From NCBI GenBank assembly GCA_019347675.1, contig JAHWKW010000022.1:1-47226 (forward strand): 47,226 nt of DNA, in the 5' to 3' direction. A program made the translations under genes and the position numbers. This DNA is from Actinomycetota bacterium (GTDB taxonomy: Bacteria > Actinomycetota > Nitriliruptoria > Nitriliruptorales > JAHWKO01). A model generated the notes under the pieces. It did not search any database, was not told where the DNA came from, and was given only the letters and a program-made list of their open reading frames with translations. Shown here in pieces: positions 4,091 through 47,133 of this stretch; the first letter of the stretch is position 1; every line of letters begins with the position of its first letter.

Positions 4091-6457
4091 GTGACGCCGG
4101 CGGCCGGACCAACTGAAGCGGATACGTGCCGGGACTTCGTCGTCCCGAAGCTTGAGGCCGCCGGTTGGGACGGCAAGTTCAAGGAGCAGTTCCCCATCAC
4201 CGACGGGCGGATCATCCCGACCCGGCGCGGCCATCGACGCGCCGACGAGCGTCTCCGCGCGGACTACGTGCTCGAGCGCGAGCCAGGCTTCCCGCTCGCG
4301 GTCGTGGAGGCGAAGCGGCTCTACAAGATCGCAGCGCACGGCCTGCAGCAGGGCAAGCGCTATGCGGAGCTCCTTGACGTCCCGTTCACGTACGCCACGA
4401 ACGGGAACGAGATCGTCGAGCACGACTACGACACCGGTCTCGACCGGATCGTCGCGGAGTTCCCTACCCCCGACGAGCTCTGGAGCCGCTTCCGCGCATG
4501 GAAAGGGCTCGCCGACGACCCGGTCGCCACCGATCTCGTCCTCCCGTTCAACCGGTCGCTCCGGAACGCCGACGGCACCGTCAAGGAACCTCGCTACTAC
4601 CAAACGACCGCCATCAACCGGATCGTCCAGGCGGTGCTCTCCGGCGACAAGCGAGTGCTCGTCACCATGGCCACCGGCACCGGCAAAACGTTCGTCGCAC
4701 TCCAGGTCGTGTGGAAGCTCTGGAGCAGCTCATGGAAGGGAGCGGCCCGCAAACCGCGGATCCTGTACCTCGCAGACCGCAACATCCTCGTGGACCAACC
4801 GATCTCGCGGGAGTTCCGTCCCGTGTTCGGCGACGCCGTGTGGAAGGTGCAGGGGACTGCACGCACGAGCCGCGAGATCTACTTCGCGCTCTACCAGGCG
4901 CTCACGGGGACGTCGGACGAACCGAGCCTCTTCCACGACTACCCAGAGGACTTCTTCGACCTCGTGATCGTCGATGAGTGCCACCGCGGCAGTGCCCGCG
5001 ACGAGTCGACCTGGCGAAACATCCTCGAGCATTTCTCCCCCGCGGCTCAGCTCGGCATGACCGCGACTCCACTCCGTGACGACAACGTCGACACCTACAA
5101 CTACTTCGGCGATCCGGTGTTGGAGTACTCACTCGCCCGAGGGATCGAGGACGGCTTCCTCGCCCCGTACCGCGTGCGACGCGTCGTGCTCAGTCCCGAC
5201 GCACACGGTTGGGCACCCGAGCCTGGCCAACTCGACCGGTACGGACGCGAGATCCCCCAAGACCTCTACAGGACCCGGGACTTCGAGCGAGTCGTCTCGC
5301 TCCTCGCTCGGACCGAGGCGGCGGCGCGCCACCTCACCGAGTACCTGAAGCGCACCGACAGGTTCGCCAAGACGATCGTGTTCTGCGTCGACTCCGAGCA
5401 CGCCGAGCAGATGCGCATGGCGCTCAACAACGCCAACGCCGACCTGACCCGTCAGCACCCCGACTACGTCGTCCGGATCGTCTCCGACGAGGGCGACATC
5501 GGCCGCATGCATCTCGGCAACTTCATCGATACAGAAGCCGAGACGCCGGTCATCGCGACCACATCCAAGCTGCTGTCGACGGGGGTCGACGCCCCGACGG
5601 TACGCAACATCGTGCTGTTCAAACCGATCGGGTCGATGGTCGAGTTCAAGCAGATCATCGGACGAGGCACCCGCCTGTACCCGGATGACGACAAGCTCTC
5701 GTTCGAGATCATCGACTACTCGGCTGCCACCGCGCTGTTCGGGGATCCGGAGTTCGACGGTCCGCCCGAATCCGTCGCCGTCGACGAGGTGGACGACGAG
5801 GGCGCCGTGGTCACCCCGCCGGTCACAGCGGCAGAGGAGCCCGCCGAGTTCGACGAGGAGGAACCTGAGGAGGAGGTCACCGAACGCGCCCATCGCAAGT
5901 TCTACGTCGAGGACGGTGACGCCTTGGTCACGGTCGAGGGGTTCTACCTGCCCGACGTCGAGACGGGCAAGCTTCGGCTGGTCGAGTACCGCGACTACAT
6001 CGCCGACACGGTGCGAGCACTGTTCCCCTCAACCAAGGATCTTCGTGGCAAGTGGTCATCGCGAGCCGGCCGTGAGGACGTCCGGGAGGCGCTGGCCCGA
6101 CGCGGCATCGACCTCCGGGAGGCGGCGGAGCGGCTCGACCTCACCGAAGCGGACCCGCTCGACCTACTCGTCCACGTGGCCTGGAACGAACCGATCACCA
6201 CCCGCCGCGATCGAGCTCGTCGAGCGCGGGACGCCGAGTTCCTCGATCACTTCGTCCCCGCCGCTCGAGAGATCCTCGAGGAACTGCTCGACAAGTACGC
6301 CGAGCATGGCATCGAACAGCTCGACGACCTGTCCGTCCTCCGCGTCCCACCGTTGAGCGAACACGGGACCGTGGTCGAAATCGCCGGCCTGTTCGGCGGC
6401 CACGAGGAGCTCCGCGACGCGGTCCGCCAACTCGAAGACAACCTCTACGCCGCCTAG
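4091..6457 (+). CDS. hsdR: Type I restriction endonuclease, R subunit (EcoEI-like)
   Basis: This 788-residue motor and nuclease subunit cuts unmodified DNA after translocation. The N-terminal nuclease domain shows RADYVL...LAVVEAKR (about 56-76), the D...ExK pattern of type I enzymes. The SF2 helicase core has Walker A ATGTGKT (about 194), DECH (about 295), GMTATP and the arginine-finger motif QIIGRGTRL. An acidic linker (EEPAEFDEEEPEEEV) leads to the C-terminal domain that binds HsdM. The length fits the EcoEI subclass. Start: the GTG at 4091. It is followed by abiEi, abiEii, hsdM and hsdS on the same strand, so the restriction subunit comes first and is separated from its partners by the toxin-antitoxin pair. 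An inverted repeat overlaps its stop codon. Confidence 0.95.
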   Translation: MTPAAGPTEADTCRDFVVPKLEAAGWDGKFKEQFPITDGRIIPTRRGHRRADERLRADYVLEREPGFPLAVVEAKRLYKIAAHGLQQGKRYAELLDVPFTYATNGNEIVEHDYDTGLDRIVAEFPTPDELWSRFRAWKGLADDPVATDLVLPFNRSLRNADGTVKEPRYYQTTAINRIVQAVLSGDKRVLVTMATGTGKTFVALQVVWKLWSSSWKGAARKPRILYLADRNILVDQPISREFRPVFGDAVWKVQGTARTSREIYFALYQALTGTSDEPSLFHDYPEDFFDLVIVDECHRGSARDESTWRNILEHFSPAAQLGMTATPLRDDNVDTYNYFGDPVLEYSLARGIEDGFLAPYRVRRVVLSPDAHGWAPEPGQLDRYGREIPQDLYRTRDFERVVSLLARTEAAARHLTEYLKRTDRFAKTIVFCVDSEHAEQMRMALNNANADLTRQHPDYVVRIVSDEGDIGRMHLGNFIDTEAETPVIATTSKLLSTGVDAPTVRNIVLFKPIGSMVEFKQIIGRGTRLYPDDDKLSFEIIDYSAATALFGDPEFDGPPESVAVDEVDDEGAVVTPPVTAAEEPAEFDEEEPEEEVTERAHRKFYVEDGDALVTVEGFYLPDVETGKLRLVEYRDYIADTVRALFPSTKDLRGKWSSRAGREDVREALARRGIDLREAAERLDLTEADPLDLLVHVAWNEPITTRRDRARRARDAEFLDHFVPAAREILEELLDKYAEHGIEQLDDLSVLRVPPLSEHGTVVEIAGLFGGHEELRDAVRQLEDNLYAA

Positions 6458-6480
6458 AACTAAAGGATAACTTTAGTTCT
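6456..6480. promoter_or_regulatory. Perfect inverted repeat, likely AbiEi operator
   Basis: AGAACTAAAG, five bases GATAA, then CTTTAGTTCT form a perfect 10-bp inverted repeat overlapping the hsdR stop. It is AT-rich in a GC-rich setting. The motif CTAAAGGATA at 6460 recurs as CTAAAGATA at 6503. AbiEi antitoxins are known to repress their own promoter by binding inverted repeats, so this is the natural operator. It could also act as a weak terminator for hsdR. Confidence 0.6.
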
Positions 6481-6500
6481 GCTTCCTAGGTTTCGTGCGC

Positions 6501-6523
6501 ATCTAAAGATACGATGTAGGACG
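6501..6523 (+). promoter_or_regulatory. Putative abiE promoter with -10 box next to the start codon
   Basis: The AT-rich stretch ATCTAAAGATACGATGTAGG holds a possible -10 (TACGAT, 6510-6515) only eight bases before the GTG start at 6523. No clear ribosome site lies between. If used, transcription would begin at or next to the start codon, giving a leaderless mRNA, which is common in actinobacteria. Inferred from sequence only. Confidence 0.4.
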
Positions 6524-7122
6524 TGCCACTGGACCGCCGCGACCTACGTCGCCAACTACTCGCGCTCGCTGCCAGGCAGTCGGGCTACTTCACCGCTGCC
6601 CAAGCCAAGGAGATCGGCTACTCCTACCAGGCACAGAAGTACCACGTGGACGCCGGCAACTGGCGCAGGATCGCCCGGGGGCTGTTCCGCCTTCCAGAGT
6701 GGCCCGTCGGCGACCACGACGACCTCGTGCGCTGGAGCCTCTGGAGCAAGGAGCGCGCTGTCGTCTCGCACGAGACAGCTCTCGCGGTCCACGATCTGGG
6801 CGACGTCAACCCACGCGCGATCCACCTAACGGTCCCCGACAGCTTCGGACAGGAGCCTCCCAGCCACATCGTCCTCCACCGGAACGAGCTGGATACCGAC
6901 GACGTGGAGGGGTTCGAGGGTTTCCGCGTCACGACTCCACTGCGATCACTCTTCGATGTCGCTGGCTCCGAGACACCTCAGGAGACGGTCGACAAGGCCG
7001 TCGCCGACGCACTGCGGGCGGGTGTCGTCTCCCGGCGGCAACTGCTGCGACGAGCCGACGAGTTCGGACCGGCCGCAGCGCTAGAGATCGAGCGCGCACT
7101 CGCGTCAGCGGCCGCCTCATGA
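6523..7122 (+). CDS. abiEi: Type IV toxin-antitoxin system antitoxin AbiEi
   Basis: This 199-residue protein has an N-terminal winged helix (about 5-50: LLALAARQSGYFTAAQAKEIG, then YQAQKYHVDAGNWRRIARGLFRL), the known AbiEi antitoxin domain that binds DNA. The rest carries the family pattern VSHETALAVHDLGDVNP, IHLTVP and RVTTPLRSLFDVA. AbiEi neutralises the nucleotidyltransferase toxin AbiEii without a stable complex and represses the operon. The GTG start at 6523 is preceded by an operator-like inverted repeat. The stop overlaps the toxin start (ATGA at 7119-7122), which couples their translation. Placement between hsdR and hsdM is unusual. Confidence 0.88.
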   Translation: MPLDRRDLRRQLLALAARQSGYFTAAQAKEIGYSYQAQKYHVDAGNWRRIARGLFRLPEWPVGDHDDLVRWSLWSKERAVVSHETALAVHDLGDVNPRAIHLTVPDSFGQEPPSHIVLHRNELDTDDVEGFEGFRVTTPLRSLFDVAGSETPQETVDKAVADALRAGVVSRRQLLRRADEFGPAAALEIERALASAAAS

Positions 7123-7997
7123 GGTATGACACCCCCGCCGGCTTCCGTGACGCGCTGGAACAGAGGCTCCTCAACCGAGCTGAGGCGACGGGAACGGACA
7201 TCAACCGGCTTCGGCGAAGAGCCGTGTTCGAACGCATCCTCGCCCGGCTCGCCGACGCGACGGGCGAACGATGGATTCTGAAGGGCGGCTTCGCCCTCGA
7301 GGTTCGGCTCGGCGACCGAGCACGGTCGACCCGTGACCTCGACTTGGCACTCGGCGACAGCGCCGCTACCGGTGCTGACGTCCGAGACGCGCTCATCGAC
7401 GCCTTGAGCCTCGACCGCGGCGACATGTTCGACTTCGAGGTCAGAGAGCCGAGGGACATCACGCCGGATGACGCTGGGCGACCTGGCTGGCGGTTCACCG
7501 TCACCGCCAACCTGGCCGGCAAGGAGTTCCAGAAGGTCCGGGTTGACGTTGTTGCGCGCCCCGAAGAGATCGGTGGACGCACCGAACAGGTGGACGTCAG
7601 CACACTACTCGATTTCGCCGACATCGAGAGCGTGACCATGGAAACGATCGACCGTCGCCAGCACTTCGCCGAGAAGCTCCACGCGCTGACGCGTGATTAC
7701 GGCGACCGACCGAGCTCTCGCGTCAAGGATCTCGCCGACCTCCTCATCCTGATCGAGGACGGGCTGCTTCCGGATGACGACCTCCTGACGGCAGTTCAGG
7801 ACGTCTTCGAGGTCCGCGCTACCCACGACGTTCCCGACACGATCCCGGCACCGCCGTCGAGCTGGCAGGCGGAGTACGAGGCCTACGTGAGCGAGCTCGA
7901 CCTTGACGCTGCTGACCTGGATGTCGCACACCAACGCTTGGATGAGTTCTGGTCGAAGGCCCGCAGCGGGGACGACCCACAGGGAGGAACACGATGA
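7119..7997 (+). CDS. abiEii: AbiEii-type nucleotidyltransferase toxin
   Basis: This 292-residue protein belongs to the AbiEii/AbiGii/MenA nucleotidyltransferase family. The characteristic catalytic region is GGFALEVRLGD followed by STRDLDLAL (about 58-86), the G-x-x...DxD motif that holds metal and nucleotide. A second motif is FAEKLHALTRDYGDRPSSRVKDLADLL (about 188-214), with the conserved Lys and Asp of the family. Members transfer nucleotides, for MenA to tRNA 3' ends, and halt growth. The ATG at 7119 overlaps the antitoxin stop. Its own stop overlaps the hsdM ATG (7994-7997), so the toxin, not the antitoxin, is coupled directly to the methylase. Confidence 0.88.
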   Translation: MRYDTPAGFRDALEQRLLNRAEATGTDINRLRRRAVFERILARLADATGERWILKGGFALEVRLGDRARSTRDLDLALGDSAATGADVRDALIDALSLDRGDMFDFEVREPRDITPDDAGRPGWRFTVTANLAGKEFQKVRVDVVARPEEIGGRTEQVDVSTLLDFADIESVTMETIDRRQHFAEKLHALTRDYGDRPSSRVKDLADLLILIEDGLLPDDDLLTAVQDVFEVRATHDVPDTIPAPPSSWQAEYEAYVSELDLDAADLDVAHQRLDEFWSKARSGDDPQGGTR

Positions 7998-9457
7998 CGA
8001 GCCAGGCCACGCTCTCCGCGGTGATCAAGAACGCGCGCGACACCATGCGCAAGGACGCCGGTCTCAGCGGAGACATCGATCGCATCCCCCAGCTCGCATG
8101 GCTGCTCTTCCTCAAGGCCTTCGATGCCCAGGAACAGGAACGCGAGGTCGTCGAACCCGACTTCGAACCGGCGATCGCGGCCCCCTATCGGTGGCGGGAC
8201 TGGGCCGCCGACCCGATCGAAGGCAAGACAGGCGAGGAGCTGCTGCAGTTCGTCAACAACGATCTCATCCCCTACCTCCGATCCCTCAGCGGGACCAGGA
8301 AGGACGACCCTCGAGACGTCATCGCCGACGCCTTCAAGGAGACCCACAACCGGATGCTGTCCGGCTATCTGCTTCGAGATGTCGTCGACGAGGTCAACAA
8401 GGTCGACTTCACGTCCTCGGACGACATCTACACCATGGCGCACCTGTACGAGAGCATGCTGCGACAGATGCGCGACGCGGCCGGTGACGCGGGCGAGTTC
8501 TACACCCCCCGTCCAGTAATCCGGTTCATGGTCGAGCAGGTGGGCCCGCAGCTCGGCGAATCCATCCTGGATCCCGCCGCGGGGACGGGCGGGTTCCTCG
8601 TCGAGGCCTACGAGCACCTCCGCCCCGAGGTCGGCAACGTCGAAGAGCTGCAGGAGCTCGAAGCGAACCTGCAGGGCATCGAGAAGAAGCCATTGCCCTA
8701 CCTGCTCGGGATGATGAACCTGCTGCTGCACGGGATCAAGCGTCCGGCGATCGTGCGCCAGAACGCCCTCGCCCAACCCGTCACGCAGATCGCGAAACGC
8801 GACAAAGTCGACGTGGTCCTCACGAACCCACCGTTCGGCGGTGAGGAGGAGAAGGGGATCCAGGACAACTTCCCAGCGGCGACTCAAACGGCAGAGACTG
8901 CCTGGCTCTTCCTCCAGCTCGTGATGCGACGGCTCAAGACTGATGGCCGATGTGGGATCGTCGTCCCCAACGGCGTCCTCTTCGCCGACGGAGTGGGCGC
9001 GAGGATCAAAGAACAGCTCTTGGACCAGTGCGACCTCCACACGATCGTGCGGCTCCCTGATGGGGTCTTTGCGCCCTACACGGATATCCCGACCAACCTG
9101 CTGTTCTTCCAGAAGACCGGACGTACCAAGGAGGTGTGGTTCTACGAGCTTCCGCTGCCCCAGGACCGGCGGAAGTACACCAAGACGAATCCGCTCCAGT
9201 TCGAGGAGTTCGAGGAAGCCCACGAGTGGTGGGGAGGCTCGCATCGCGAGGGACGCAAAGAAACAGACCACGCCTGGAGGGTGTCCATCGCAGACATTGA
9301 AGACGCCAACTACAACTTGGACATCACGAATCCGACTGCACCTGGGGATCTATCGCATCGTCCACCAAAGGAGCTGGTCGCTGATCTCTTCGAAGTGGAA
9401 GACGGAATCCGCCAGACGCTTGGCGCCTTGGAAGAGGTGATGACTCATCTTGAGTAA
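7994..9457 (+). CDS. hsdM: Type I DNA methyltransferase subunit
   Basis: This 487-residue N6-adenine methyltransferase modifies the host DNA and is needed for specific restriction. It has an N-terminal HsdM helical domain (about 8-150), then the SAM-binding motif DPAAGTGGF (about 193) and the catalytic motif NPPF (about 278). The C-terminal part (NLLFFQKTGRTKEVWFYELP, ...YNLDITNP) is typical of the family. The start ATG overlaps the abiEii stop by four bases, and the stop TAA (9455-9457) overlaps the TTG start of hsdS. It should form the M2S complex with the next gene product and work with HsdR at 4091. Confidence 0.96.
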   Translation: MTSQATLSAVIKNARDTMRKDAGLSGDIDRIPQLAWLLFLKAFDAQEQEREVVEPDFEPAIAAPYRWRDWAADPIEGKTGEELLQFVNNDLIPYLRSLSGTRKDDPRDVIADAFKETHNRMLSGYLLRDVVDEVNKVDFTSSDDIYTMAHLYESMLRQMRDAAGDAGEFYTPRPVIRFMVEQVGPQLGESILDPAAGTGGFLVEAYEHLRPEVGNVEELQELEANLQGIEKKPLPYLLGMMNLLLHGIKRPAIVRQNALAQPVTQIAKRDKVDVVLTNPPFGGEEEKGIQDNFPAATQTAETAWLFLQLVMRRLKTDGRCGIVVPNGVLFADGVGARIKEQLLDQCDLHTIVRLPDGVFAPYTDIPTNLLFFQKTGRTKEVWFYELPLPQDRRKYTKTNPLQFEEFEEAHEWWGGSHREGRKETDHAWRVSIADIEDANYNLDITNPTAPGDLSHRPPKELVADLFEVEDGIRQTLGALEEVMTHLE

Positions 9458-10685
9458 GCATGCGATGGGCACGCGCCACCTGGCCGACTTCCTTGAGCTC
9501 AGCGTCGAGGAGATTCCGCTCGAACCTTCGTCTCAGTACGAGATGGCTGGACTCTACAGCTTCGGCAGAGGTCTCTTTGAACGAGATCCAGTCCGTGGCA
9601 GCGACACGTCATATGCGAAATTCAACCGACTTCGAGAAGGCCAGCTAGTAATTAGTCGTCTCAAGGCGTTCGAGGGCGCTGTCACCGTTGTTCCACCGGA
9701 GTTCGATGGTCGCCACCTCTCTCGAGAATTTCCGACCTATGACATCGACCCCACCCAGGCTGATCCGCGATTCGTTCGACACCTGTGTCGTTGGCCGGGA
9801 TTTTGGGATCTTCTACGCGAAGCGTCATACGGCGTCGGAGCCCGTCGAGAGCGCGTTCACAAGACTGAGATCCTCACGACTGTGAGCGTGCCCCTCCCAG
9901 ATTTTGCAGAGCAGCGTCGGTTGGCCGAAGTGCTAGACGCTGCCCAAACCCATGTCTCGTCGGCGAAGAGCTCAGTGGAGCGATCGCGCGCGCTAGCGTC
10001 AGCTCTTGTCACCTCGCTGACACATCGCGGCGACCTGTCCGAGGATGAGAGATTACGAAGGGGATGGCGCCTAGTTCCTGTCGGAGAATTCGTCGACCTT
10101 GATCTCGACGAAGTCCGGGTTAGTGACGACGGGACTTATCCTATGGTTGGCGTGTTCAGCTTCGGCCGTGGCCTCTTCGCCAAGGACTCTGTATCCGGAT
10201 CGGACACGTCCTATACCAAGTACTACCGCCTCCACCCAGGCCAGATTGTCCTAAGCCGGCTCTTCGGATGGGAAGGGGCTATTGCGCTGGTCACCGACGA
10301 GTTCGAAGGTCGTTTCGTATCAACCGAGTTCCCGACATTCCGAGTAGATGAGAACAAGGCTGTTTCGGAGTTTTCAGCGGCCTTGTTCGCGACAGAGGCA
10401 TTCTGGGGTCAACTCCGGAGCGAGGCCGAGGGCATGGGCGTCAGACGGCAACGCATCCACGCGGAGCGATTCATGAACCAGGAGGTCTGGCTGCCTCCAT
10501 TGCCGTACCAGTATGCGACCACCACTCAGATTGCAGAGCTCCGTGAGATCGCTACGGAGGAGAGACGTGACGAGCTCCTCGACGCCGTCATGCCCTCGCT
10601 GCTCAACGCCACGTTCAGCGCAGTTCCATTGAGCCAGCAGACGGTTCAGCACATAGAGGAAAGAGAGCTTCGCGACCATGACTGA
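9450..10685 (+). CDS. hsdS: Type I specificity subunit with two near-identical target-recognition domains
   Basis: This 411-residue subunit reads the bipartite DNA target for HsdM and HsdR. It has two target-recognition domains, each followed by a coiled-coil spacer (about 150-190 and 355-400). The cores at about 36-100 (YSFGRGLFERD..GSDTSY) and 236-300 (FSFGRGLFAKD..GSDTSY) match at roughly 38 of 65 positions by eye. Both halves should therefore recognise similar half-sites, giving a near-palindromic bipartite target. TTG 9450 overlaps hsdM by eight bases; ATG 9465 is an alternative start. GC content drops visibly from here through the next gene. The stop overlaps the sir2 start by eight bases. 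Confidence 0.92.
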   Translation: MSKHAMGTRHLADFLELSVEEIPLEPSSQYEMAGLYSFGRGLFERDPVRGSDTSYAKFNRLREGQLVISRLKAFEGAVTVVPPEFDGRHLSREFPTYDIDPTQADPRFVRHLCRWPGFWDLLREASYGVGARRERVHKTEILTTVSVPLPDFAEQRRLAEVLDAAQTHVSSAKSSVERSRALASALVTSLTHRGDLSEDERLRRGWRLVPVGEFVDLDLDEVRVSDDGTYPMVGVFSFGRGLFAKDSVSGSDTSYTKYYRLHPGQIVLSRLFGWEGAIALVTDEFEGRFVSTEFPTFRVDENKAVSEFSAALFATEAFWGQLRSEAEGMGVRRQRIHAERFMNQEVWLPPLPYQYATTTQIAELREIATEERRDELLDAVMPSLLNATFSAVPLSQQTVQHIEERELRDHD

Positions 10686-11802
10686 GCACAGTGTGATGAC
10701 CTTTACGAACGAGTTGGGCACGAAACTGTCCACCCGTTCGAGGCACGTGTGCACCTTTCTTGGGGCAGGTATCTCTAAGGCTTGCGGCCTTCCAGATGTC
10801 GCGACTCTCGAACAAGACGTAGTCGGGGGCTTGGAAGGTGATGAGCAGGAAGCCCTGCAGGCGCAGCTCGAAGACAGGAACCTTGAACAGACACTAAGCC
10901 GTCTTCGACGAATCTCCTCCCTCGTTTCTGGTGATGAGAGGGTCGATGGGCTGACTGGGACAGACGCGGCCCAGTTGGACAACAACATTTGCCGACTCAT
11001 CGTAGGTCGATTGGCTGTAGACCAAGCGAATCTCGCTCCAGCTTTGCAGTTCGTATCGTGGGCGGGTCGCACCTCTTATTCGCGACCAGTAGAAATCTTC
11101 ACCGTGAACTACGACCTTCTTCTCGAAACCTCGCTGGAGCGTCTGGGAATACCGTACTTCGACGGCTTCGTGGGATACCTCACTGGGCGGTTCAGGACCG
11201 ACCTAGTCGAAGCTAAGCCCACTGATGAAGAGGCCTGGCTCCCTAGGTTCGTGGCTCGTCTATGGAAACTTCATGGATCTGTGAACTGGCGCTGGGATTC
11301 TGAGCATTCGTCGACGGTGTCACGGCTCGGGACAACCGTTTCGGAAGGAGAGCCGGCTGCAATCTACCCGTCCGATGCCAAGTACGAGGAGTCGAGACGG
11401 GTACCGTTCGTCGTGCTGCAAGATCGATTTCGTCGGGCCCTGCAGGAGCCTGAGACGCTACTTCTCGTCTGTGGCTATTCGTGGAGCGATGCGCATCTCA
11501 ACGAGATGATTTTCGAAGCAGCGCGGCGCCACCCGCGGTCAGAGATCATCTCATTCTGCTACTCCACCATCCCCGAGGAGCTGGCGAATGAAGCAGTTGC
11601 AACACCGAACCTTCAGGTTGTTGCCCAGAAGGAAGCGATCATCGGGGCGATTCGCGGTGCCTGGCAAGAGCCCACAGAGGCGCCCCCGGAAACCGTCTGG
11701 ATGAACACGACCCGTGGGGCGCCGTCGGGGACGCCGGCGAACGCGCGGTCCGGGCGGCTCAACCCTGGCCGGTGCGGACCCAGCCCCACGATGTACAGCT
11801 GA
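10678..11802 (+). CDS. SIR2-like domain protein (defence NADase candidate), aberrant C-terminus
   Basis: The reading frame codes for 374 residues. SIR2-type motifs are FLGAGIS (about 27-33), TVNYDLLLE (about 142), LHGSVNW with the catalytic-type His (about 197) and GYSWSDAHLNEMI (about 266). This matches SIR2-like domains of phage-defence proteins, which degrade NAD+ to stop an infection. It overlaps hsdS by eight bases and is the last gene of the operon, suggesting joint expression with the restriction-modification proteins. From about residue 342 (WMNTTRGAPSG...) the frame is simply antisense of a metallophosphoesterase gene. The natural end is thus missing or replaced at a junction near 11702. 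The conserved core is complete. Confidence 0.82.
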   Translation: MTEHSVMTFTNELGTKLSTRSRHVCTFLGAGISKACGLPDVATLEQDVVGGLEGDEQEALQAQLEDRNLEQTLSRLRRISSLVSGDERVDGLTGTDAAQLDNNICRLIVGRLAVDQANLAPALQFVSWAGRTSYSRPVEIFTVNYDLLLETSLERLGIPYFDGFVGYLTGRFRTDLVEAKPTDEEAWLPRFVARLWKLHGSVNWRWDSEHSSTVSRLGTTVSEGEPAAIYPSDAKYEESRRVPFVVLQDRFRRALQEPETLLLVCGYSWSDAHLNEMIFEAARRHPRSEIISFCYSTIPEELANEAVATPNLQVVAQKEAIIGAIRGAWQEPTEAPPETVWMNTTRGAPSGTPANARSGRLNPGRCGPSPTMYS

Positions 11803-12302
11803 TCTTCAGCGCCGCCTGGCTCAGAGGAGGGGACCGCGGCCGATTCATTGAGCAGCACGACGACGCCTCGCTGCTCGAGCACGACGGTCAACTCATCCGC
11901 GGCCCCGACCGCATAGTCATGATTGCCCATCACGGCATAGATCGGGATCCCCGAGCTCGTGAGCGGGGCCAGCAACTCCACGACGTTGTCGACTTGCTTC
12001 GCGACATCCGGGGCATCGCTGTACACGAAGTCCCCTGCCAGGAGCACCGCGTCGGGGTCCGCTTCCACCACCCGCGCCACGACCCGCCTCACCATGTTGA
12101 TGTTCGCCAACCACATCCCGACCTGGAGGTCCGCGAACACCGCCACTTCCGCGCCCTCCCAGTCCTGATCAACTCGTGGCAGAGCGATGCTGTAACGGCG
12201 CTCGTCGAGGATGAGGCGAGGCTCGACCAGCACCCCGTACGCTGTCAGCAGCGCAAGCCCTGCCAGGAGCGCGATCCCGCTCCACTTCAGCAAGCCCTTC
12301 AC
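11613..12302 (-). pseudogene. Metallophosphoesterase, 3'-truncated at the island junction
   Basis: Residues 1-200 form a calcineurin-like phosphoesterase anchored by an N-terminal membrane helix (GIALLAGLALLTAYGVLV). Metal-site motifs visible are FADLQVG (Asp 58), LLAGDFVYS (Asp 91) and MGNHDYA (Asn 127, His 128). Family members continue after VVF with an H.PD segment and a GHTHGGQ motif that supplies the last metal ligands. Here these are absent, and the last 30 codons (QTVSGGASVGS...) are antisense to the sir2 gene. The enzyme should be inactive. It starts at ATG 12302, about 80 bases after the PAP2 gene on the same strand, and was probably co-transcribed with it. Confidence 0.8.
11690..11705. 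other. Recombination junction: right end of the defence island
   Basis: Left of this point the plus strand codes for the SIR2 protein. Right of it the minus strand codes for a metallophosphoesterase that stops matching its family right after GAPRVVF (last good codon 11703-11705). Each gene's frame runs into antisense of the other. Two unrelated coding sequences meeting tail to tail inside both genes indicate an insertion or deletion joint. No direct repeat or tRNA sequence is evident at the joint. Confidence 0.6.
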
Positions 12303-14962: not shown

Positions 14963-15554
14963 CGACGGCCGACCCCGAGGATCCGCTCGAGGCAGGCCGC
15001 GCTCGGCAACGACATGAGCGACTTCTGCGACCACGACTACCTCCTGATCGCCGCCAAGGCGGACGCTTCGGTGATCACCACGTGCATCCGACTGCCACCC
15101 CGCGTTCCGGACCTCCGTCTACACGAACTGGTCGCGGACGTCACCGCGGCCCTGCTCGCATGGAGCAACACGTCGCGCTCGCGATCGTTGCGGGCGTTGA
15201 AGGCCTCCAGCCAGGAGCCACGGCCGCGGGATCGGCGAGGTCCACTCCCTCGGCGGCCATGCCAGCCAGCAGGCTCCTGCTCGGCCCGAGGCGCGCGGGT
15301 TGTCCATCGCCGCGGCGAATGCCTCGAGCAACTCGTCAAGGTGCGCAAGCAGCCGCTGGAGACGGTCGGAGGCAGGCGAGACCAGGATCCGCCGACCGTA
15401 CCCAGCAAGGGACGGAGTCAAGGCCGTCCTGGCGTCCGACGCGTTCACAGCATCAGGGGTCCACGACCTCGATCCCGAAATGGCGCATCGGCCATCCTTC
15501 GTGTCTCGACGGTCCCGGGGCGCCAGCGACCGCGTTCAGTGCCCCACCGTGAGC
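14963..15554. other. Stretch without a recognisable gene
   Basis: About 590 bases lie between the DUF1206 gene and the monooxygenase. Frames are open on both strands but are broken and compositionally poor. On the minus strand 15450 to 15270 encodes LTPSLAGYGRRILVSPASD and LDELLEAFAAAMDNPRASG, which reads like real protein, and then loses frame. A decayed regulator or hypothetical gene is possible; I cannot name it. Confidence 0.4.
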
Positions 15555-16889
15555 TCAGGCGGGCTCGCGGCACAGCGCGTTGGGCTGCCGTGGGACGGGC
15601 TCGGGCGCCCAGCCGGCCGCCGGTTCGGCCATCGACTGCACGATCTTGCCAGAGCGGACGGCAATGTTGGACAGCAGCGTGGCGGTGATGCCATGAGTGT
15701 GTTCTGTGCCGCCTTGTAGGTAGATGGCACCCTGGGTCGGTGTGGAGGTGGCGATGCGATAGTCCCGCTCGACGCGGACCATGCCCTCCTCGTCTCTCAG
15801 GCACAGTTGCCCGGCCTCTCCAAGGACACGCACCGGGTCGACCGGCCGGTAGCCGGTCGCGTAGACGAGCACGTCCGACGTGAGCAAGTTCCGCTCGCCG
15901 GTGGGCATGAACTCCACGGTGGCTTCCACGCCGTCCGCTGTGACGGCCACGTCGACGAGTCGTGAGGCGTTGAGGATGCGCAGCCGCTGGCGCCCCTGCA
16001 CCTTCTCCTGATAGACGCGCCTGTACAGCTCCTGGATGAGCTCGGCGTCGACGACGGAGTAGTTGGTGTTGCGGTGGTAGTCGAACAGCATCCGCTTCAC
16101 CTCCTTCGGTGCGCTGAAGTACAGGTCGACCGCCTCAGGGTCGAAGATGCGATTCGCGAAGGGCGTGTCGTCAGCGGGCGTGTATCCGTACCGGGCGAAC
16201 AGCGAGCACACCTCCGCCTGCCGGAACCGGCGGTGCAGGTACTCCGTGGCTTCCGCGGCGCTTTGGCCTGCCCCGACCACGATGAAGCGGCGAGGCGAGG
16301 GGACGTCGGGCAAGGCAGCGAGCCGCTCGAGGAGATCGAGGTTGTGCCAGACGCGGTCGCACAGTCGTACGCCGGAAGGAACACTCAGCTCGAGGCCGAC
16401 GGCGATGACGAGGTTACGGGCCCGGCGAACCTCGATCTCGCCCGACGGCCCACCGCGGCGGACCACCACGTCGAAGCAGGCGACGACATCGCTGTCGGTC
16501 ACAGGTCGGACGTCGATCACCTCGCTGTCGTAGTCCACGACGTGCCGCATCCTTTGTGCCGCCCACTCCAGGTAGTCGTGGAACTCGAGGCGCAGGGGGA
16601 AGAGGATCTTGTGGTTGATGAAATCAACCAGGCGACCCTTGCTGTGCAGGTAGGACAGGAAACTGAAGTCACTCGACGGGTTGCGCATCGTGACGAGATC
16701 CTTCAGGAACGACACCTGCATGGTGGCGTCGTCGATCAGCATCCCGCGGTGCCATCCGAACCTCGGCTGCTTCTCGAAGAACCGCGCCTGCAACCCGTCG
16801 GGACCGGTCGTCGTGCGGTTGTGCTCGTCGAGCGCGATCGCGAGCGCGAGATTGGACGGTCCGAACCCGATGCCGATCAGATCGAGCAC
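15555..16889 (-). CDS. L-ornithine (or L-lysine) N-monooxygenase for siderophore synthesis
   Basis: This 444-residue flavoprotein of the SidA/IucD/PvdA family adds a hydroxyl to the side-chain amine of ornithine or lysine, the first step to hydroxamate siderophores. Visible: FAD motif GIGFGPSNLALAIAL (about 6-20), the family signature WHRGMLIDD..MQVSFLKDLVTMRNP (about 46-71), NADPH motif VVGAGQSAAEATEYL (about 205) and ATGY (about 352). The start is GTG 16889, 42 bases after the mbtH-like gene on the same strand. The iron box at 17168-17186 should control both. Ornithine is the more likely substrate given the NRPS and the acyltransferase nearby, but lysine cannot be excluded. Confidence 0.92.
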   Translation of the reverse strand: MLDLIGIGFGPSNLALAIALDEHNRTTTGPDGLQARFFEKQPRFGWHRGMLIDDATMQVSFLKDLVTMRNPSSDFSFLSYLHSKGRLVDFINHKILFPLRLEFHDYLEWAAQRMRHVVDYDSEVIDVRPVTDSDVVACFDVVVRRGGPSGEIEVRRARNLVIAVGLELSVPSGVRLCDRVWHNLDLLERLAALPDVPSPRRFIVVGAGQSAAEATEYLHRRFRQAEVCSLFARYGYTPADDTPFANRIFDPEAVDLYFSAPKEVKRMLFDYHRNTNYSVVDAELIQELYRRVYQEKVQGRQRLRILNASRLVDVAVTADGVEATVEFMPTGERNLLTSDVLVYATGYRPVDPVRVLGEAGQLCLRDEEGMVRVERDYRIATSTPTQGAIYLQGGTEHTHGITATLLSNIAVRSGKIVQSMAEPAAGWAPEPVPRQPNALCREPA

Positions 16890-16930
16890 AGCACGTCCCC
16901 GTTCAGGGCTGTGAGAAGGGGGCCACCAGC

Positions 16931-17149
16931 TCAGGCTGTCGAGCCGTCCATGGCTTGGATGAGGCTGTTGGGCCGCATGTCGGTCCAGTGCGTTTCGACG
17001 TATTGGATGCAGACCGAACGAGCGTCCCGCCCGTGCACGACGGTCCAGCCGGCCGGCATGTCGATGAAGTCCGGCCAGAGCGCGTACTGGCCCTCATGGT
17101 TGACGAGCACCATGTCGGTGCCGTTGGGGTCTTCGAAGGGGTTAGTCAT
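16931..17149 (-). CDS. MbtH-like protein
   Basis: This 72-residue small partner of NRPS adenylation domains helps them fold and adenylate. It reads [35 protein letters not shown] and [11 protein letters not shown]. The NxEGQY(S/A)LWP and THWTDMRP signatures and three conserved Trp residues are all present. ATG 17149 was chosen because the MTNPF start is typical; a GTG at 17161 would add four residues. It lies directly after an iron box and before the ornithine monooxygenase gene, forming a two-gene iron-regulated operon. The partner is the NRPS at 18062-22736. Confidence 0.95.
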
Positions 17150-17167
17150 CTGGGCGACCACCTTAGC

Positions 17168-17186
17168 TTAGGGAAACCTTACCTAA
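17168..17186 (-). promoter_or_regulatory. Iron box 1 (IdeR/DmdR type), in front of mbtH-like gene
   Basis: The minus strand reads TTAGGTAAGGTTTCCCTAA, 15 of 19 matches to the actinobacterial consensus TTAGGTTAGGCTAACCTAA. It lies 18 bases upstream of the mbtH-like ATG. It predicts repression of mbtH-like and the monooxygenase gene by an IdeR/DmdR regulator when iron is plentiful. Confidence 0.8.
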
Positions 17187-17201
17187 CTTCTAGCCCTCCG
17201 G

Positions 17202-17981
17202 TCAAGGGTCCCTTGACGACAGGGCCCGACGGTGCGTCCGGTTTCCGGTTTCACGTGCGCCGGTGTCGATCTCGTGATCCGACCACCATCGTTCTCTGAC
17301 CACGTGGGTGGTGGCGGTGAGCAGTGCGACGCTTGCCCCGTACTGAGGGTCGGCGTGCAGGTCGTACAGCCGAACGGGGCCCAGAACCGGCGGGCTCGTC
17401 GCCGGCTGGAGCACCTGCGGCGGCTCCGCAGGTGCTGATACCACCAGGCAGTCCGGACCGGCGGTCAGTCCTTTGCCATCCGCCTTGAGAACCGCCTCCT
17501 TGCGTGTCCAGTACGTCGTGAACGCCCGCACCTGTTCCGCCTCGGGTAGGGAGTCGAGGACCAAGCGCTCGGATTCGGCGAGTGCAGCCGCTACCAGAGC
17601 GGGATCGGGCGGTAGCGCCCCGATCTTCTCGACGTCGATGCCGACGGAAACCCCGGCGGTCACCGCCAGCGCGACGAGATCACCGGAGTGTGACAACGAA
17701 AACCGCAACCGAGAGGCGGGAGTCAGCAGGCGGGGCTTTCCGTGAGGACCGCCGCAGTGGCGACAGGTCGCGTCGAGCCCCACCGATGCCGGGGGTACAC
17801 CCAGGTAGCCGCCCACTACGACACGCAGCAGGACGCGGCCCGTGAGGAAACGCGATCGATCCTCTTGGCGCCGGTAGCGCATCATCCGTGTTCGTTCGTC
17901 GGCGCTGAGCAGCTCCCGCTCGGTGTCGAGGACGGGGCGGGGCCGAGCCCACCAGACGTGGCACTCGTTGACGTCGATCAC
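17202..17981 (-). CDS. 4'-phosphopantetheinyl transferase (Sfp type)
   Basis: This 259-residue enzyme transfers phosphopantetheine from CoA to the serine of carrier domains. The family motifs are FSLSHSGDLVALAV, VGIDVEKIG (metal-binding GIDVE, about 114-118) and WTRKEAVLKADGKGL (about 162-176), with the W..KEA..K signature. It should activate the T domain of the neighbouring NRPS. It lies downstream of the NRPS on the same strand with an 80-base gap, so it is probably the last gene of the acyltransferase-NRPS operon. Its stop is 16 bases from iron box 1. The start is ATG 17981. Confidence 0.93.
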   Translation of the reverse strand: MIDVNECHVWWARPRPVLDTERELLSADERTRMMRYRRQEDRSRFLTGRVLLRVVVGGYLGVPPASVGLDATCRHCGGPHGKPRLLTPASRLRFSLSHSGDLVALAVTAGVSVGIDVEKIGALPPDPALVAAALAESERLVLDSLPEAEQVRAFTTYWTRKEAVLKADGKGLTAGPDCLVVSAPAEPPQVLQPATSPPVLGPVRLYDLHADPQYGASVALLTATTHVVRERWWSDHEIDTGARETGNRTHRRALSSRDP

Positions 17982-18061
17982 GCTTGGTCGTCCGAGTCGT
18001 CGGCTTGGCGTCCATGGTCTGATGAGACCGCGGGCCGCATACCGGTCCAGTGAGCGTTCAC

Positions 18062-21000
18062 CTATTCCGGGCCGGGTCCTGGCGCGGATGGGGGGTCGTC
18101 GGCGAAGCCGTCTTCGAATTCGTCGATCTCGTCCTGGCTCAGCTCCACCAGCAGGTCGGACGGGGTGTGCCCACCCGCACCCGGGGCGCGCGTGTGGGTC
18201 ACCAGCGCGTCGAGGGCGACGAACCAGCCGTCAGCGAGTTCGCGGACGTCGCATTCGGGCAGCAGCGCCGAGGGCCACGACCACGTGACCGACAGCTCCG
18301 GCCCGGTTGGCCGGTCGCGGGTGATGGCGTTGATCTCTACGACATAGGCGACCGGCATATCGTCGTCGACAGAGCCGGACAGCGCCTGGCTCAGCGCGGA
18401 GAAGCCTTCCGGGTCGGGGTTCTCCGGCGACGCTGTGGGGAACCGGCCCAGGTAGTTGAACCCGATCTGAGGCCAGCGCAACGGCGCGAGCTCGACGCGA
18501 GTGCGGGCGTTGAGGTAGCGCAGCAGGCCGAACCCCACGCCGTTGTCCGGCAGCGCCCGCAGTTGCTCCTTGATCCGCTTCACCGCGTGCCCAGCCGCCG
18601 GGCCGCCGCGCAGCGCCTCCGCCCGGTCGATCGCACCCGGCTCGAGCCGGACGGGGAACGTGCTGGTGAACCAGCCGACCGTGCGCGAGACGTTGGCGCC
18701 TGGCACGACGTCCTCACGGCCGTGGCCCTCCAGGTTGATGAGCACGCCATGGTCCCCATCGCCAGCGCGGCCGCGCCGCTGGCGCCAGTCGGCAACGGCC
18801 AGTGCCAGCGCGGTGAGCAGCACGTCGTTGACCCCGGCGTGGAACGCCGCGGGCACCTCGGTCAGCAGAGGCGCGGTCCGCTCCGGCGGGAGCATGCAGG
18901 TCAGGTGGCGGGTGGTGGCCGCGGTGTCGCGCTGACGGTCGATCGGCAGCGACGACAGCGGCGGGTCGGCGGGCTCCAGCATCTCCCGCCACAGGGACAG
19001 CTCGGCCTCCCGGCCGGGCCGTTGCGCCTCCTTGGTGAGTCCGCAGGCCCAGCGGCGGAACGACGTGGCGACCGGCTCCAGCCGAACAGGCCGGCCGGCC
19101 GCGACGGCCTCCCAGGCGGCGGCCAGGTCGGGGACGAGGATCCGCCATGAGACGCCGTCAATGACGAGGTGGTGCACGACGCACAGCAGCCGGCCGGCGT
19201 GGTAGGGACCCGTGTCGAACCACACCGCCTGCACCATGACCCCCGCGTCGGGATCCAGCCGGGACCTCGCCGCGGCCAGATGCTCCTCGACGAGCGCGTC
19301 AAGTGCCCCGGGGTCGGCCCTGGTCGCGTCGACGCGGGTCAGGCAGTGGCCCGCGCGCACCGCGCCGGGCGGCGGCACGTCGAGCTCCCATCCGTCGGCC
19401 GAGCGCAGCAGCCGTGCGCGCAGCATCGCGTGGTGGTCGAGCACCGCCTGGAGCACGGTGGCGAGCCGCTCCTGGCCAGCCCCTGCGGGGATCTGCACCA
19501 GCATGGACTGGTTGTGGCCGTCGATCACGCCGCCGTGCTCGCGCAGCCACGCGATGATCGGGGTGATCGGCACGCGGCCGAGCTCGGCGTCGGGGTGCTC
19601 CGGCTCGGGGGCACCAACCGGGCGGGCCACTCGTGCCAGCCGGGCGACGGTGCGCTGCTCGAAGACGGCCCGCGGGGTGATCTCGAGCCCCTCCCGGCGG
19701 GCCCGACCGACCAGCACGATCGAGGAGATGCTGTCGCCACCGAGGCTGAAGAAGTCGTCGGCGATGCCGACCTCCTCCACCCCGAGCACCTCGCCGACCA
19801 GTCCCGCGAGCAGCTCCTCGGCTGCGGTCCGTGGCCCGGCATCACCCCCACGGCTGGGAGGCCCTGGCGCGGGCAGCGCCTCGCGGTCGAGCTTGCCGTT
19901 GGGGTTGCGCGGCAGCTCGGGCAGCGCCACGAACGCGGCGGGGACCATGTAGTGGGGCAGATCTGCGGCCAGGTGGCGGCGCCACGCCTCAGGGTCGGCG
20001 TCAGCCCGCGGTGCAGGGACGACGTAGGCGACCAGCCGCGCCGGGCTACCGTCCGGCCCGTCGCGACGCGCCACGACGGCGGCGGCGGCGACCCCCGGAT
20101 GGCGCAGCAGCACGCTCTCGACCTCCCCGGGTTCCACCCGGAATCCGCGGATCTGCACCTGGTCGTCGCTGCGGCCGAGGAACTCCAGTTCGCCCGCGGG
20201 CGACCAGCGGGCCAGGTCGCCAGTGCGGTACATCCGCGACCCGGGCGGGCCGAACGGGTCGGCGACGAACCGCTCGGCGGTGAGGCCGGGGCGACCGAGG
20301 TAGCCGCGGGCCACGCCGTCACCGCCGATATAGAGCTCCCCCACCACCCCTTGGGGCTGCGGGAGCAGGCCGGGACCGAGGACGTAGACACGGGCGCCCG
20401 GATCGGGTCGCCCGATCGGCGGCGTTCGGCCGCGCCAGCCGGGCGGGGCGGCCCACAGCGTCTGGTTGACCGTCGACTCGGTCACGCCATAGGCGACGAC
20501 GAAACGCACCCGCTGCGACCAGCGGCTCACCAGCTCCGCCGACACCGTCTCCGAGCCGACGAGCAGGGCGATCCGGTCGGGGAAAGCGGCGTCCAACGGG
20601 ACGACCGCCAGCAGCGAGGGCGGGATCGCCAGCACGGTGAGCTGCTCGTCGCGGGCGAACGTGAGCAACGCGTCGACGTCGGTGCGGCGGTCGGAGGGCA
20701 CCACCACGAGGCAGCCGCCCGACAGCAGCGCCATGCACAGCTCCCACACCGCGATGTCGAAGCTCAGCGCGGCGAACTGACCGACTCGGCTGCCGGGCCC
20801 GACTCCCAACCGGTCCTGCGCCGTCGCGACGAGGCTCGCGATGCCGCTGTGGGTCACCACGACGCCCTTGGGCCGGCCGGTCGAACCGGAGGTGTAGACC
20901 ACGTATGCGGCGCGGCCGAGATCGTCGCCGAGATCGGGCGCCCCGGGGTCGCCGGCGCGGGTGTCCCCCTCGACCCCGTCGGCGGCATCGAACAGCAGCC

Positions 21001-22736
21001 GGTCGATTCCGACGTCTGCCGGCAGCCGAGGCGCTGCCGCTGCGGTGGTCAGCACCAGGGCGGGAGCCGCGTCGGCGAGCACGTAGGCGAGGCGCTCCGC
21101 CGGGTGGTCGAGATCCAGCGGCAGGCAGGCGCCGCCCGCCTTCTGCACGGCGAGGAACGCCACGACGTACTCGACCGAGCGCTCCAGCGCCAGCGCCACC
21201 ACCCGCTCCGGGCCCACACCGCGGTCGCGCAGGACATGAGCGAGGCGGTTCGCGCGCCGGTCCAGCTCGGCGTAGGTCAGCTCGCGTCCGTCGGCGCGCA
21301 CCGCGGCGGCGTGGGGAGTACGGGCCGCCTGCGCGGCGAACAGCGACGGCAGGCTGGCCGCGGGCAAGGGCCGCTGGGCGGTGCCGATGCCGCTGCCGAG
21401 GACCTGCCGGGCCTCGTCGCGGGAAACGAGGCCGCAACGGCCGACCGGCCGGGCCGGGGCGGTTGCGACGGCGGTGAGCATCCGCTCCAAGCGCCCCGCC
21501 AGGGCCGCGGCCTCGGCGGGTGTGACCGCGTCGGTGCGGTGGTGCAGCGCGAGGCGCAGCCGCTCACCGGGCGTCACGACGACGGTCAGGGGGTAGTGGG
21601 TGGCGTCGTGTGACTCGACCCCGGTGATCCGAAGGCCGGCGACCACCTCATCGGAGAGGTCCCGGGGATGGTTCTCGAAGACGACGAGCGTGTCGAACAG
21701 CTGCCCCAGACCCGCCCGGCGCTGGATCTCGGAGAGCCCGACGTGCTGGCTGCCGAGAAGGTCGGCCTGCTCGTCCTGTAGGCGGCGCAGCGCCTGGCAC
21801 AGTGGCTCGGCCGGGCGCACCCGGACCCGCACGGGCACGGTGTTGACGAGCAGTCCCAGCATGTTCTCCACGCCGGGGATCTCGGCGGGGCGAGCGGCGA
21901 CGGTGGTGCCGAACACGACGTCGTCGCGGCCGGTCGTGGCGGCGAGGACGACCGCCCACGCACCCTGCAGCACCGTGTTGAGGGTCAGGCCGTGCTGGCG
22001 GGCAGTGGTGACGAGATCGGCGGTGACTTCGGCGGACAGCTCGGTGACGTGCTCGGCGCCGGGGCCGGGGACGTCGCCGGCGGTGGGAGCGAGCAGCGTG
22101 GGGCGCTGCAGCCCATCGAGCGCGCGTTCCCACGCGGCGTGCGCGGCGTCGCGGTCCTGCTCGAGCAGCCAGGCGAGGTAGTCGCGGTAGGGCGTCACCG
22201 GGGGCAGCGCCGAAGCGTCGCCGCGGCTGGCGTAGAGCGCGAGCAGTTCGCGAACGAGCAGCGGGGTGGACCAGCCGTCAAGCAGGATGTGGTGGCTCGT
22301 CAGCACCAGCCGGTGGTCATCCGCGCCAAGGCGGACGAGCACGAGCCGCAGCGCGGGCGGGCGGGCGAGGTCGAAGCGGTGCGCGCGCTCGGCGGCGATG
22401 AGGTCGGCGAGCCCGGGCCGCGCGCTCGTCCGGGTCGAGGTCGGAGACGTCGACCTCCCGCCAGGGCAGCTCGACGGCGCGCGGCAGCAGCTGTGCGGGC
22501 CGCCCGGAGCGGCCGAGCCGGAACCCGGCGCGCAGGTTGGCGTGGCGCCCGAGCAGGGCCTCGCCGGCTGCGCGGAACGCGGCTGGGTCGACGGGCCCGG
22601 CCAGGGCGACGACGAGCTGCACCGCGTAGACGTCCGGCCCGCGGTCGCCGTTCGTCCCGTCGTAGAGGGCATGGAACAACAGCCCCTCCTGAAGCGGTGA
22701 CAGCGGCAGCAGGTCCTCCAGGCCGGCGCGTCCCAT
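18062..22736 (-). CDS. One-module NRPS, C-A-T-E, with one frameshift in the C domain
   Basis: Corrected length is 1557 residues. The C domain starts [18 protein letters not shown], a form typical of C domains that accept D-residue donors, and holds HHILLDG. The A domain has [34 protein letters not shown] and NGKLDREAL. The carrier site is LGGDSISS. The last domain is epimerase-type: [28 protein letters not shown] and FNYLGR. The tail [18 protein letters not shown] resembles a donor docking (COM) helix. There is no thioesterase. ATG 22736 overlaps the acyltransferase stop (ATGA). One extra base in the GC run at 22416-22430 breaks the frame after DLDPDERA; skipping it restores [18 protein letters not shown]. 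The product is probably a siderophore with an acyl-hydroxyornithine unit. Confidence 0.88.
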
Positions 22737-23380
22737 CAGCTCTCCTCTCCCCGCCTGCCAGGCATGTCGTCCCCGTCGGGGCCCAACAGCTCGAGCCCGT
22801 CCGCGTCGTCGCGTGGCCGCACCAGCAGTGCGGCGGTCTTGTGCGGCAACCGGACGTGTCCGGCGGCGCGGAACCCGGCGCGGCCGAAGGCGCGGACCGC
22901 GGCGGCGTTCTTCTCGTCCGGCTCGGCGACGACCCGGCTGCATGCGGGAGCGGCCGCCAGCAGCCCGTCGGCGACGGCTCGCAGCAGCGCGCTGCCGAGC
23001 CCGCTCCCGCAGCGGGCCGGATCGCCGATGGCGATGTGGACGCCGAGGTCGTGCGGTCGCGCCGGGTAGTGCGCGGCCAGGCGGTCGCGGACGACCCGGT
23101 AGATCTCGAGGTAGGCGAACGGCTCCCCGTCCAGCGCCACAAGGCAGGGCCGCGAGTGCTGCCCGGCGAGCTGGCCGGCGAGCTCGGCCTGCCAGCGCCG
23201 CATGGGCCAGGCCTGGCCCCACCGGGCGGCCACGTGCGGTGCGGACATCCAGGCATGGACACGTTGCAGGTCCTCACCCCACGCCCGGGCGACCCGGATC
23301 GACCACGGGTCGTCGAGCCGGGGCAGGGGCGGCGGACCGACCTCATGCTCCCCCGCTTGCGACGTCTGCAGCACGAGCAA
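22736..23380 (-). CDS. Siderophore GNAT-type acyltransferase (IucB/MbtK-like)
   Basis: This protein of about 214 residues belongs to the family that acylates N-hydroxy-ornithine or -lysine to make the hydroxamate. Motifs include WMSAPHVAARWGQAW (about 44-58), FAYLEIYRV..DRLAAHYP (about 88-106), DLGVHIAIGDP, GLGSALLRAVADGL (acyl-CoA loop, about 126-139) and VVAEPDEKNAAAVRAFGRAGF. The start is TTG 23380 or a nearby GTG. Iron box 2 lies 12 bases upstream. The stop overlaps the NRPS ATG, so the two proteins are translationally coupled. Whether it uses acetyl-, malonyl- or a longer acyl-CoA cannot be read from sequence. Confidence 0.85.
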   Translation of the reverse strand: MLVLQTSQAGEHEVGPPPLPRLDDPWSIRVARAWGEDLQRVHAWMSAPHVAARWGQAWPMRRWQAELAGQLAGQHSRPCLVALDGEPFAYLEIYRVVRDRLAAHYPARPHDLGVHIAIGDPARCGSGLGSALLRAVADGLLAAAPACSRVVAEPDEKNAAAVRAFGRAGFRAAGHVRLPHKTAALLVRPRDDADGLELLGPDGDDMPGRRGEES

Positions 23381-23391
23381 TCCACGTTGAT

Positions 23392-23410
23392 TAAGGTTAG
23401 CCTTACCAAA
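23392..23410. promoter_or_regulatory. Iron box 2 in a divergent promoter
   Basis: TAAGGTTAGCCTTACCAAA matches the IdeR box TWAGGTTAGSCTAACCTWA at 17 of 19 positions. It sits between the acyltransferase-NRPS operon (minus) and the ABC transporter pair (plus), and can serve both. The surrounding 100 bases resemble the region around iron box 3. Confidence 0.85.
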
Positions 23411-23547
23411 TGCAAGCTAGGCCGGGGCCGACTGGCCCGTCAAGCAGAGCGGGGCGCGACAACGCCAAGGGATCGCCGCGCGCGGGCGCAGGGAGCGAAG
23501 CAGCACAGAAGATCACCATCGGTCGGCCACACGAACAAGGATGCTCT

Positions 23548-46799: not shown

Positions 46800-47133
46800 G
46801 GACACCTCATCGTTCGTCACGTCCTCCACCCGCACGGTCGCCTGTTGCGTCGAGGATCGGGAGCGACCGTGCAGCGGCTGGCTCGTTGTCGCGGGGAAGG
46901 CGCCGGCGAAGCCCATCGATGCTCCGATCGAGTGACGGCCGGATGCTACGCCGGGCGGGTTACGAGAAAACGGCGGCAGGGTGTCGGCCCACTGAACGCT
47001 TGCTGGCGATACGGCGACGTCGACGATCGTTCCGACACTCGTCGCTAGTGTGCCGTCCGCTAAATACGCTAAATAATGGCTGGGCGGGTGTAGATTCCAT
47101 GTGACGGGCTGATGGTGGCGACCAGGAGCTGGC
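46800..47133. other. Intergenic region with AT-rich tandem motif GCTAAATA
   Basis: About 330 bases without a gene. It holds the response-regulator promoter and, near its right end, GCTAAATAC followed by GCTAAATAA (about 47058-47076), the most AT-rich spot here. This may belong to the left end of the insertion sequence that starts at 47134, but I cannot fix a terminal repeat without its other end. Confidence 0.45.

Follow-up and report, generated by a model that had tools for sequence, protein, structure and literature searches.

An AbiE toxin-antitoxin pair embedded in type I restriction-modification operons of actinobacteria as a candidate regulatory front end

Introduction

We have only a partial understanding of how a type I restriction-modification (R-M) system is safely switched on upon entering a new host, and the known answers are proteolysis of HsdR and the recently described repressor RptR. 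In this study, we investigated the window, which is the whole of contig JAHWKW010000022.1 (C22; 47,226 nucleotides) from an Actinomycetota assembly of 76 contigs and 3.49 Mb (GCA_019347675.1), where the two genes of an AbiE type IV toxin-antitoxin (TA) pair, abiEi and abiEii, lie between hsdR and hsdM of a type I R-M operon. We propose, with moderate confidence, that the AbiE pair could serve as the regulatory front end of this EcoAI-like R-M system, and we infer that the antitoxin AbiEi may double as transcriptional controller of the methylase.

The closest precedent is found in enteropathogenic Escherichia coli (EPEC), in whose RRDM island the repressor RptR governs a type I R-M operon that contains the DarTG2 pair (PMC12255303). 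TA pairs inside type I R-M operons are already known, and what appears to be new is the candidate regulatory use of the antitoxin; no description of AbiE inside hsd operons was found in the open-access literature. The window resembles the EPEC island in having a TA pair inside a type I R-M operon and a small operon-encoded repressor, here a candidate, on the operon promoter. However, the EPEC repressor has a gene of its own and the TA pair of the island is placed between hsdS and hsdR, whereas in the window the candidate repressor is the antitoxin and the TA pair separates hsdR from hsdM; the toxin of the island also comes from a family unrelated to AbiE, and the repeats of the window differ in sequence from the TAGCTA repeats of RptR.

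With reference to AbiE itself, the streptococcal AbiEi is an experimentally proven autorepressor acting on two inverted repeats (PMC3985639). The window shares with that system the two-gene pair, the winged helix-turn-helix (wHTH) antitoxin, the inverted repeats at the promoter, whose operator function is predicted here, and a nucleotidyltransferase toxin with the hG[G/S]x15DhD motif; yet the streptococcal operon is bicistronic, and here the same kind of promoter would also read into hsdM and hsdS. The R-M genes follow the layout of the EcoAI family, with hsdR before an hsdM-hsdS unit and an HsdR of the same family, but relatives without AbiE have about 10-350 bp between hsdR and hsdM, where AbiE adds about 1.5 kb. 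A likeness to the type II R-M systems with C proteins was also noticed, as in both cases a small regulatory protein made from the R-M locus could set the timing of methylase relative to nuclease; C proteins, however, are known to belong to another helix-turn-helix family and to act on the endonuclease gene (see also PMC12255303), while the regulator here stands on the methylase side.

Results

The five-gene core and its recurrence

The order hsdR, abiEi, abiEii, hsdM, hsdS, sir2, all on the same (+) strand, and four start/stop overlaps (7119-7122, 7994-7997, 9450-9457 and 10678-10685) had been described in an earlier sequence-only reading of this DNA, and we recovered all six open reading frames (ORFs), their order and the overlaps to the nucleotide. 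The only intergenic gap of the core from hsdR to hsdS lies between hsdR and abiEi. Gene hsdR (4091-6457) encodes a restriction subunit of the EcoAI/FtnUII family (NCBIfam NF046051, 945 bits vs a cut-off of 550) with the domains ResIII and EcoEI_R_C. The GTG-started abiEi (6523-7122; Pfam AbiEi_4, 2e-10; PADLOC AbiEi, 5e-71) encodes the wHTH antitoxin and probable repressor, and it adjoins the nucleotidyltransferase gene abiEii (7119-7997; Pfam AbiEii, 1e-32; PADLOC, 3e-84), as an AbiE type IV system requires. The AbiEii of the window has G56-G57, R69, D73, D75, K186, R192 and D204, representing the nucleotidyltransferase motifs I-IV needed for toxicity, and its motif spacing, hG[G/S]x15DhD, matches that of PMC3985639. 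Next come hsdM (7994-9457; Pfam N6_Mtase, 242 bits, with HsdM_N; PADLOC, 9e-197), a predicted N6-adenine methyltransferase, and the TTG-started specificity gene hsdS (9450-10685; PADLOC Specificity_I, 2e-52), the two being adjacent, as a type I system of the EcoAI family requires.

Searches with AbiEii in genomes of the same class and phylum disclosed the same order in G048, G087 and G066, and the HsdM of the window is 69% identical to those of G048 and G066. A wider scan, with an AbiEii alignment as query and one genome per species, returned 80 loci. Together with the locally fetched loci, the order hsdR-abiEi-abiEii-hsdM-hsdS was present in 39 loci; in a few of these, a contig end interrupts the locus or a gene is split or fused. 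These were mostly from Actinomycetota, including Streptomyces, Actinomadura, Microbispora, Micromonospora, Nocardioides, Terrabacter and Blastococcus, with one metagenome-assembled genome (MAG) each from Nitrospirota (L096) and Acidobacteriota (L102). The possibility that the order exists only in this contig is therefore discarded, and the nesting of AbiE in a type I R-M operon, which the sequence-only reading had noticed, is a conserved unit. Across the embedded loci, the hsdR-abiEi gap measures 24-113 bp, the abiEi/abiEii overlap is exactly -4 in 36 of the 39, and the hsdM/hsdS distance is mostly -4 or -1. The direct coupling of toxin gene to hsdM, likewise claimed earlier, holds in all 39 loci with distances of -86 to +39 bp, none of which shows a new promoter gap before hsdM. 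This five-gene core with the same overlaps is more than a chance arrangement.

The 80-locus scan is biased toward embedded pairs because its query alignment held some of them. Two less biased counts were made. Among 396 genomes of the phylum, 14 had an HsdM at E<=1e-90, and seven of these, at identities of at least 57%, comprised four loci with AbiE, two without and one cut by a contig end; among 294 genomes of the order of G087, four had a close HsdM, two with AbiE, one with abiEi alone and one with neither. These counts indicate that AbiE, though frequent in this R-M lineage, is not an obligatory part of it. No AbiEii relatives were found in viral contigs, a phage search gave only weak matches in Mycoplasma phage records, and a plasmid search gave five distant AbiEii.

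Many relatives carry RadC (24 loci) and GmrSD_N (19 loci) genes 3' of hsdS in convergent orientation (e.g., L050, 4485-6873). They were rejected as members of the unit on account of their opposite strand, their limited occurrence and their absence from the window. AbiE was also noticed beside other R-M genes. In a Phycisphaerales MAG (L118, 4233-8855), a type III restriction gene precedes the pair by 74 bp, showing that AbiE also joins another R-M type, and in a Nitrospira MAG (L098, 7432-16852) it lies upstream of an hsdM of a different family and further large genes on the same strand.

A putative operator and promoter in the hsdR-abiEi gap

The putative operator/promoter region between hsdR and abiEi, overlooked in the sequence-only reading, tells more about the locus than any other part. 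The motif AACTAAAG/CTTTAGTT, searched with the octamer of the window only and one mismatch allowed, occurs in this gap in 31 of 36 other loci, against a mean of 4.6 and a maximum of 10 in shuffles. It was found before hsdR in one of 33 loci and before hsdM in none of 36, which suggests that hsdM and hsdS stand behind an autorepressed promoter of the AbiEi type. An inverted repeat beyond that of shuffles was present in 20 of 37 gaps, often as CTTTAGTTT...GAAACTAAA. In the window, the candidate AbiEi operator is AGAACTAAAG-GATAA-CTTTAGTTCT (6456-6480), with 10-bp arms; by itself, this repeat reaches only borderline significance in the shuffle test (p 0.06).

Alignment of the start-codon contexts brought out a -10 box, TANNNT, at a distance of exactly 6 nt upstream of abiEi in 22 of 35 loci compared with a background of 3%, while a generic sigma-70 scan gave nothing useful. 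The candidate box of the window, TACGAT (6510-6515, + strand), stands 7 nt before abiEi, and a similar box lies 6-7 nt before hsdR in 10 of 35 loci. Judged by the usual distance from -10 box to start, these positions suggest that hsdR and abiEi each head a leaderless message. The same motif and the same box were also seen in solo AbiE pairs of the family (23 of 51 and 17 of 31, respectively), suggesting that AbiE brought its own promoter and that hsdM and hsdS came under it.

Evolution of the embedded pair

The divergence of AbiEi parallels that of HsdR and HsdM, and HsdS follows far less. In the 33 complete loci, the pairwise-distance correlations were 0.69 for AbiEi-HsdR, 0.63 for AbiEi-HsdM, 0.79 for HsdR-HsdM and 0.28 for HsdM-HsdS, while AbiEii followed HsdR and HsdM less closely (0.59 and 0.43); all of these exceed 999 permutations, with a contribution from shared host phylogeny. 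The HsdM tree recovered a supported clade of 37 members, namely 35 AbiE loci, one with abiEi only and one without AbiE. The Nitrospirota locus falls among AbiE-less relatives in this tree, and its AbiEi is sister to that of a solo Nitrospirales pair, so that AbiE was probably inserted a second time, independently, at the same place.

A natural toxin deletion was detected in a Streptomyces genome (G590, locus L198), in which abiEi (199 codons), the operator and hsdMS are intact. Its abiEii is a 53-codon in-frame remnant of the first 24 or so codons and an apparent C-terminal stretch, beginning at the abiEi stop and ending just before hsdM, and thus bridging both. In a check for faster evolution after toxin loss, the AbiEi identities were only slightly lower. 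As the toxin was lost and the R-M genes were kept, the toxin is not indispensable. This single case fits the expectation for a system in which regulator and coupling are important and the toxin is dispensable.

The SIR2 gene and its breakpoint

The sequence-only reading had the operon end with a SIR2 gene. The ORF (10678-11802, + strand) and its overlap with hsdS are present, but the gene is truncated, as similarity to SIR2 is lost at about 11,700 and the remainder of the ORF is open by chance (sir2, 5' part, 10678-11700; PADLOC SIR2, 7e-105). Judging from homology, it is a member of the SIR2-HerA (Nezha-type) family. It is 57-61% identical to SIR2 genes, and a HerA-like ATPase gene and a KTSC gene come after its nearest annotated relatives (57-58% identity), more distant ones and annotated plasmid homologues. 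A full-length sir2 followed by herA, the arrangement of such pairs, was not found in the window, where no herA is adjacent and the 3' end of sir2 is lost. No SIR2 gene was present in the other embedded loci. The third-position GC content (GC3) of hsdS is 0.64, against 0.78-0.86 in the preceding genes, and that of sir2 is likewise lower.

The missing parts were located in the same genome. On the opposite strand of the window, a metallophosphoesterase gene outside the system (5' part, 11694-12302; 203 aa aligned at 54% identity with a G006 homologue of 293 aa) loses its homology at 11,694, placing the breakpoint of both genes at 11694-11700. Contig C5 carries the missing phosphoesterase end (162,857-163,132), the SIR2 tail and herA from 163,250, with the reciprocal breakpoint near 163,128 and the cut in the window at about 11,697. 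The herA gene of C5 (163250-165261) has a frame change and a TGA codon and ends at an IS630-like transposase, and its 3' part lies on contig C44 (6988-7446). The breakpoint junctions share no repeat, the longest match being 10 bp. An assembly chimera at 11,697 is less likely, since the reciprocal piece is in the same assembly and the junctions are without a shared repeat; a balanced rearrangement (inversion or translocation) that split sir2, with herA broken as well, is the likelier explanation, though not a proved one. As a separate observation, the right end of the window (47045-47226) is 99% identical to the start of the IS630-like element on C5.

Other features of the window

At the left end of the contig (179-1856 and 1860-2079), excisionase and tyrosine integrase genes are followed by ORFs that translate like a tRNA 3' end, of the att-site type, and a similar stretch of 65-75 bp lies near another integrase on C44. 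No tRNA gene was called there or elsewhere in the window, and an Rfam scan of the window at a loose threshold gave chance-level matches only. A 73-bp repeat, 97% identical, is shared between the window (15387-15459) and C5 (156160-156232), with the translation MNASDARTALTPSLAGYGRR at both, and is possibly a dispersed small repeat. Genes for an ornithine monooxygenase, a phosphopantetheinyl transferase and an ABC exporter, together with a large ORF resembling non-ribosomal peptide synthetases, make up a probable siderophore cluster at 15555-25239.

Discussion

In the mechanism that we propose, hsdR would be transcribed separately, and a second promoter in the hsdR-abiEi gap would start a probably leaderless abiEi-abiEii-hsdM-hsdS message with translationally coupled cistrons. 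AbiEi would bind the inverted repeats of the gap and repress this whole message, so that AbiEi alone would set the levels of toxin, antitoxin and methylase/specificity subunits. Once AbiEi is low, either on entry into a new host or when a phage shuts off synthesis, hsdMS would be derepressed; on establishment the methylase would rise early, on infection the defence genes and AbiEii would rise, and the toxin may act as back-up or addiction element. The binding, the single transcript, the coupling, the derepression and this role of the toxin are inferred. SIR2 is outside this unit. Several observations weigh against such control by AbiEi. The AbiEi tree mixes embedded and solo pairs with 16 changes, so the association is often broken, and pairs also leave or replace one another; AbiE-less relatives with hsdR directly before hsdM exist; loss of the toxin with retention of abiEi was seen only once and may be a recent event; and an unseen internal promoter in abiEii or hsdM could uncouple hsdMS.

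Alternatively, the pair may have inserted between hsdR and hsdM together with an autorepressed promoter of its own and been kept only through the co-inheritance of defence genes, with hsdMS expressed by read-through and AbiEi control non-adaptive. The intermixing in the AbiEi tree, the R-M relatives without AbiE, the crowding of GmrSD_N and RadC on the 3' side of relatives and the second origin in Nitrospirota, which shows that insertion can recur, all agree with this. It is nevertheless rather unlikely, as overlaps and promoter are kept across about 50% protein divergence, the G590 deletion is in frame and retains its bridge to hsdM, and no embedded locus has gained a promoter gap before hsdM. 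Slightly less probable again is that AbiEii is itself the purpose of the arrangement, in that R-M loss or inhibition by a phage frees the toxin and stops the cell, punishing loss or anti-restriction, which corresponds to the AbiE part of the sequence-only reading. The catalytic and toxicity residues of AbiEii are intact in the window, and AbiE stabilises an integrative and conjugative element in Streptococcus suis, as outlined in PMC11062541. The direct joining of toxin to hsdM in all loci speaks in the same direction, but may reflect operon compaction only. There is no obvious trigger, since type IV antitoxins are, to our knowledge, not known to be labile, and G590 lost its toxin without losing the R-M genes.

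The sequence-only reading had further suggested a layered unit, with SIR2 at its end causing the death of the cell once restriction has failed. The 8-bp overlap of sir2 with hsdS and the depletion of NAD+ by SIR2 domains, well known in general and described for Nezha (PMC11559045), are in its favor. On the other hand, SIR2 is confined to the window among the embedded loci, shares with hsdS a lower GC3 than the preceding genes, and is cut, with its tail and a disrupted herA on another contig, and deletion of herA abolishes Nezha immunity in Vibrio cholerae (PMC11559045). With sir2 cut, herA broken and the studied Nezha system needing HerA, no case can be made for SIR2 as the layer of this operon that kills, and the layered unit is highly improbable.

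Conclusions

Returning to AbiEi as the controller of the R-M operon, a broader and more tentative proposal is that AbiEi is a widespread antitoxin-derived controller of type I R-M, timing the methylase/specificity subunits apart from hsdR, and that the toxin guards the same regulator, such that loss or inhibition of the R-M control protein is punished; we regard this as possible, with the balance leaning against it. The truncated SIR2 gene is a reminder that adjoining defence genes can resemble one operon by accident. If AbiEi control is true, an autorepressed TA promoter would be the hsdMS promoter, giving a second transcriptional answer to the safe switching-on of type I R-M. It would also account for the tight joining of a toxin gene to a methylase gene, an arrangement that is recurrent in actinobacteria, including culturable Streptomyces such as Streptomyces griseofuscus DSM 40191 (locus L090), and one R-M lineage offers natural toxin-less, AbiE-less and complete versions of it.

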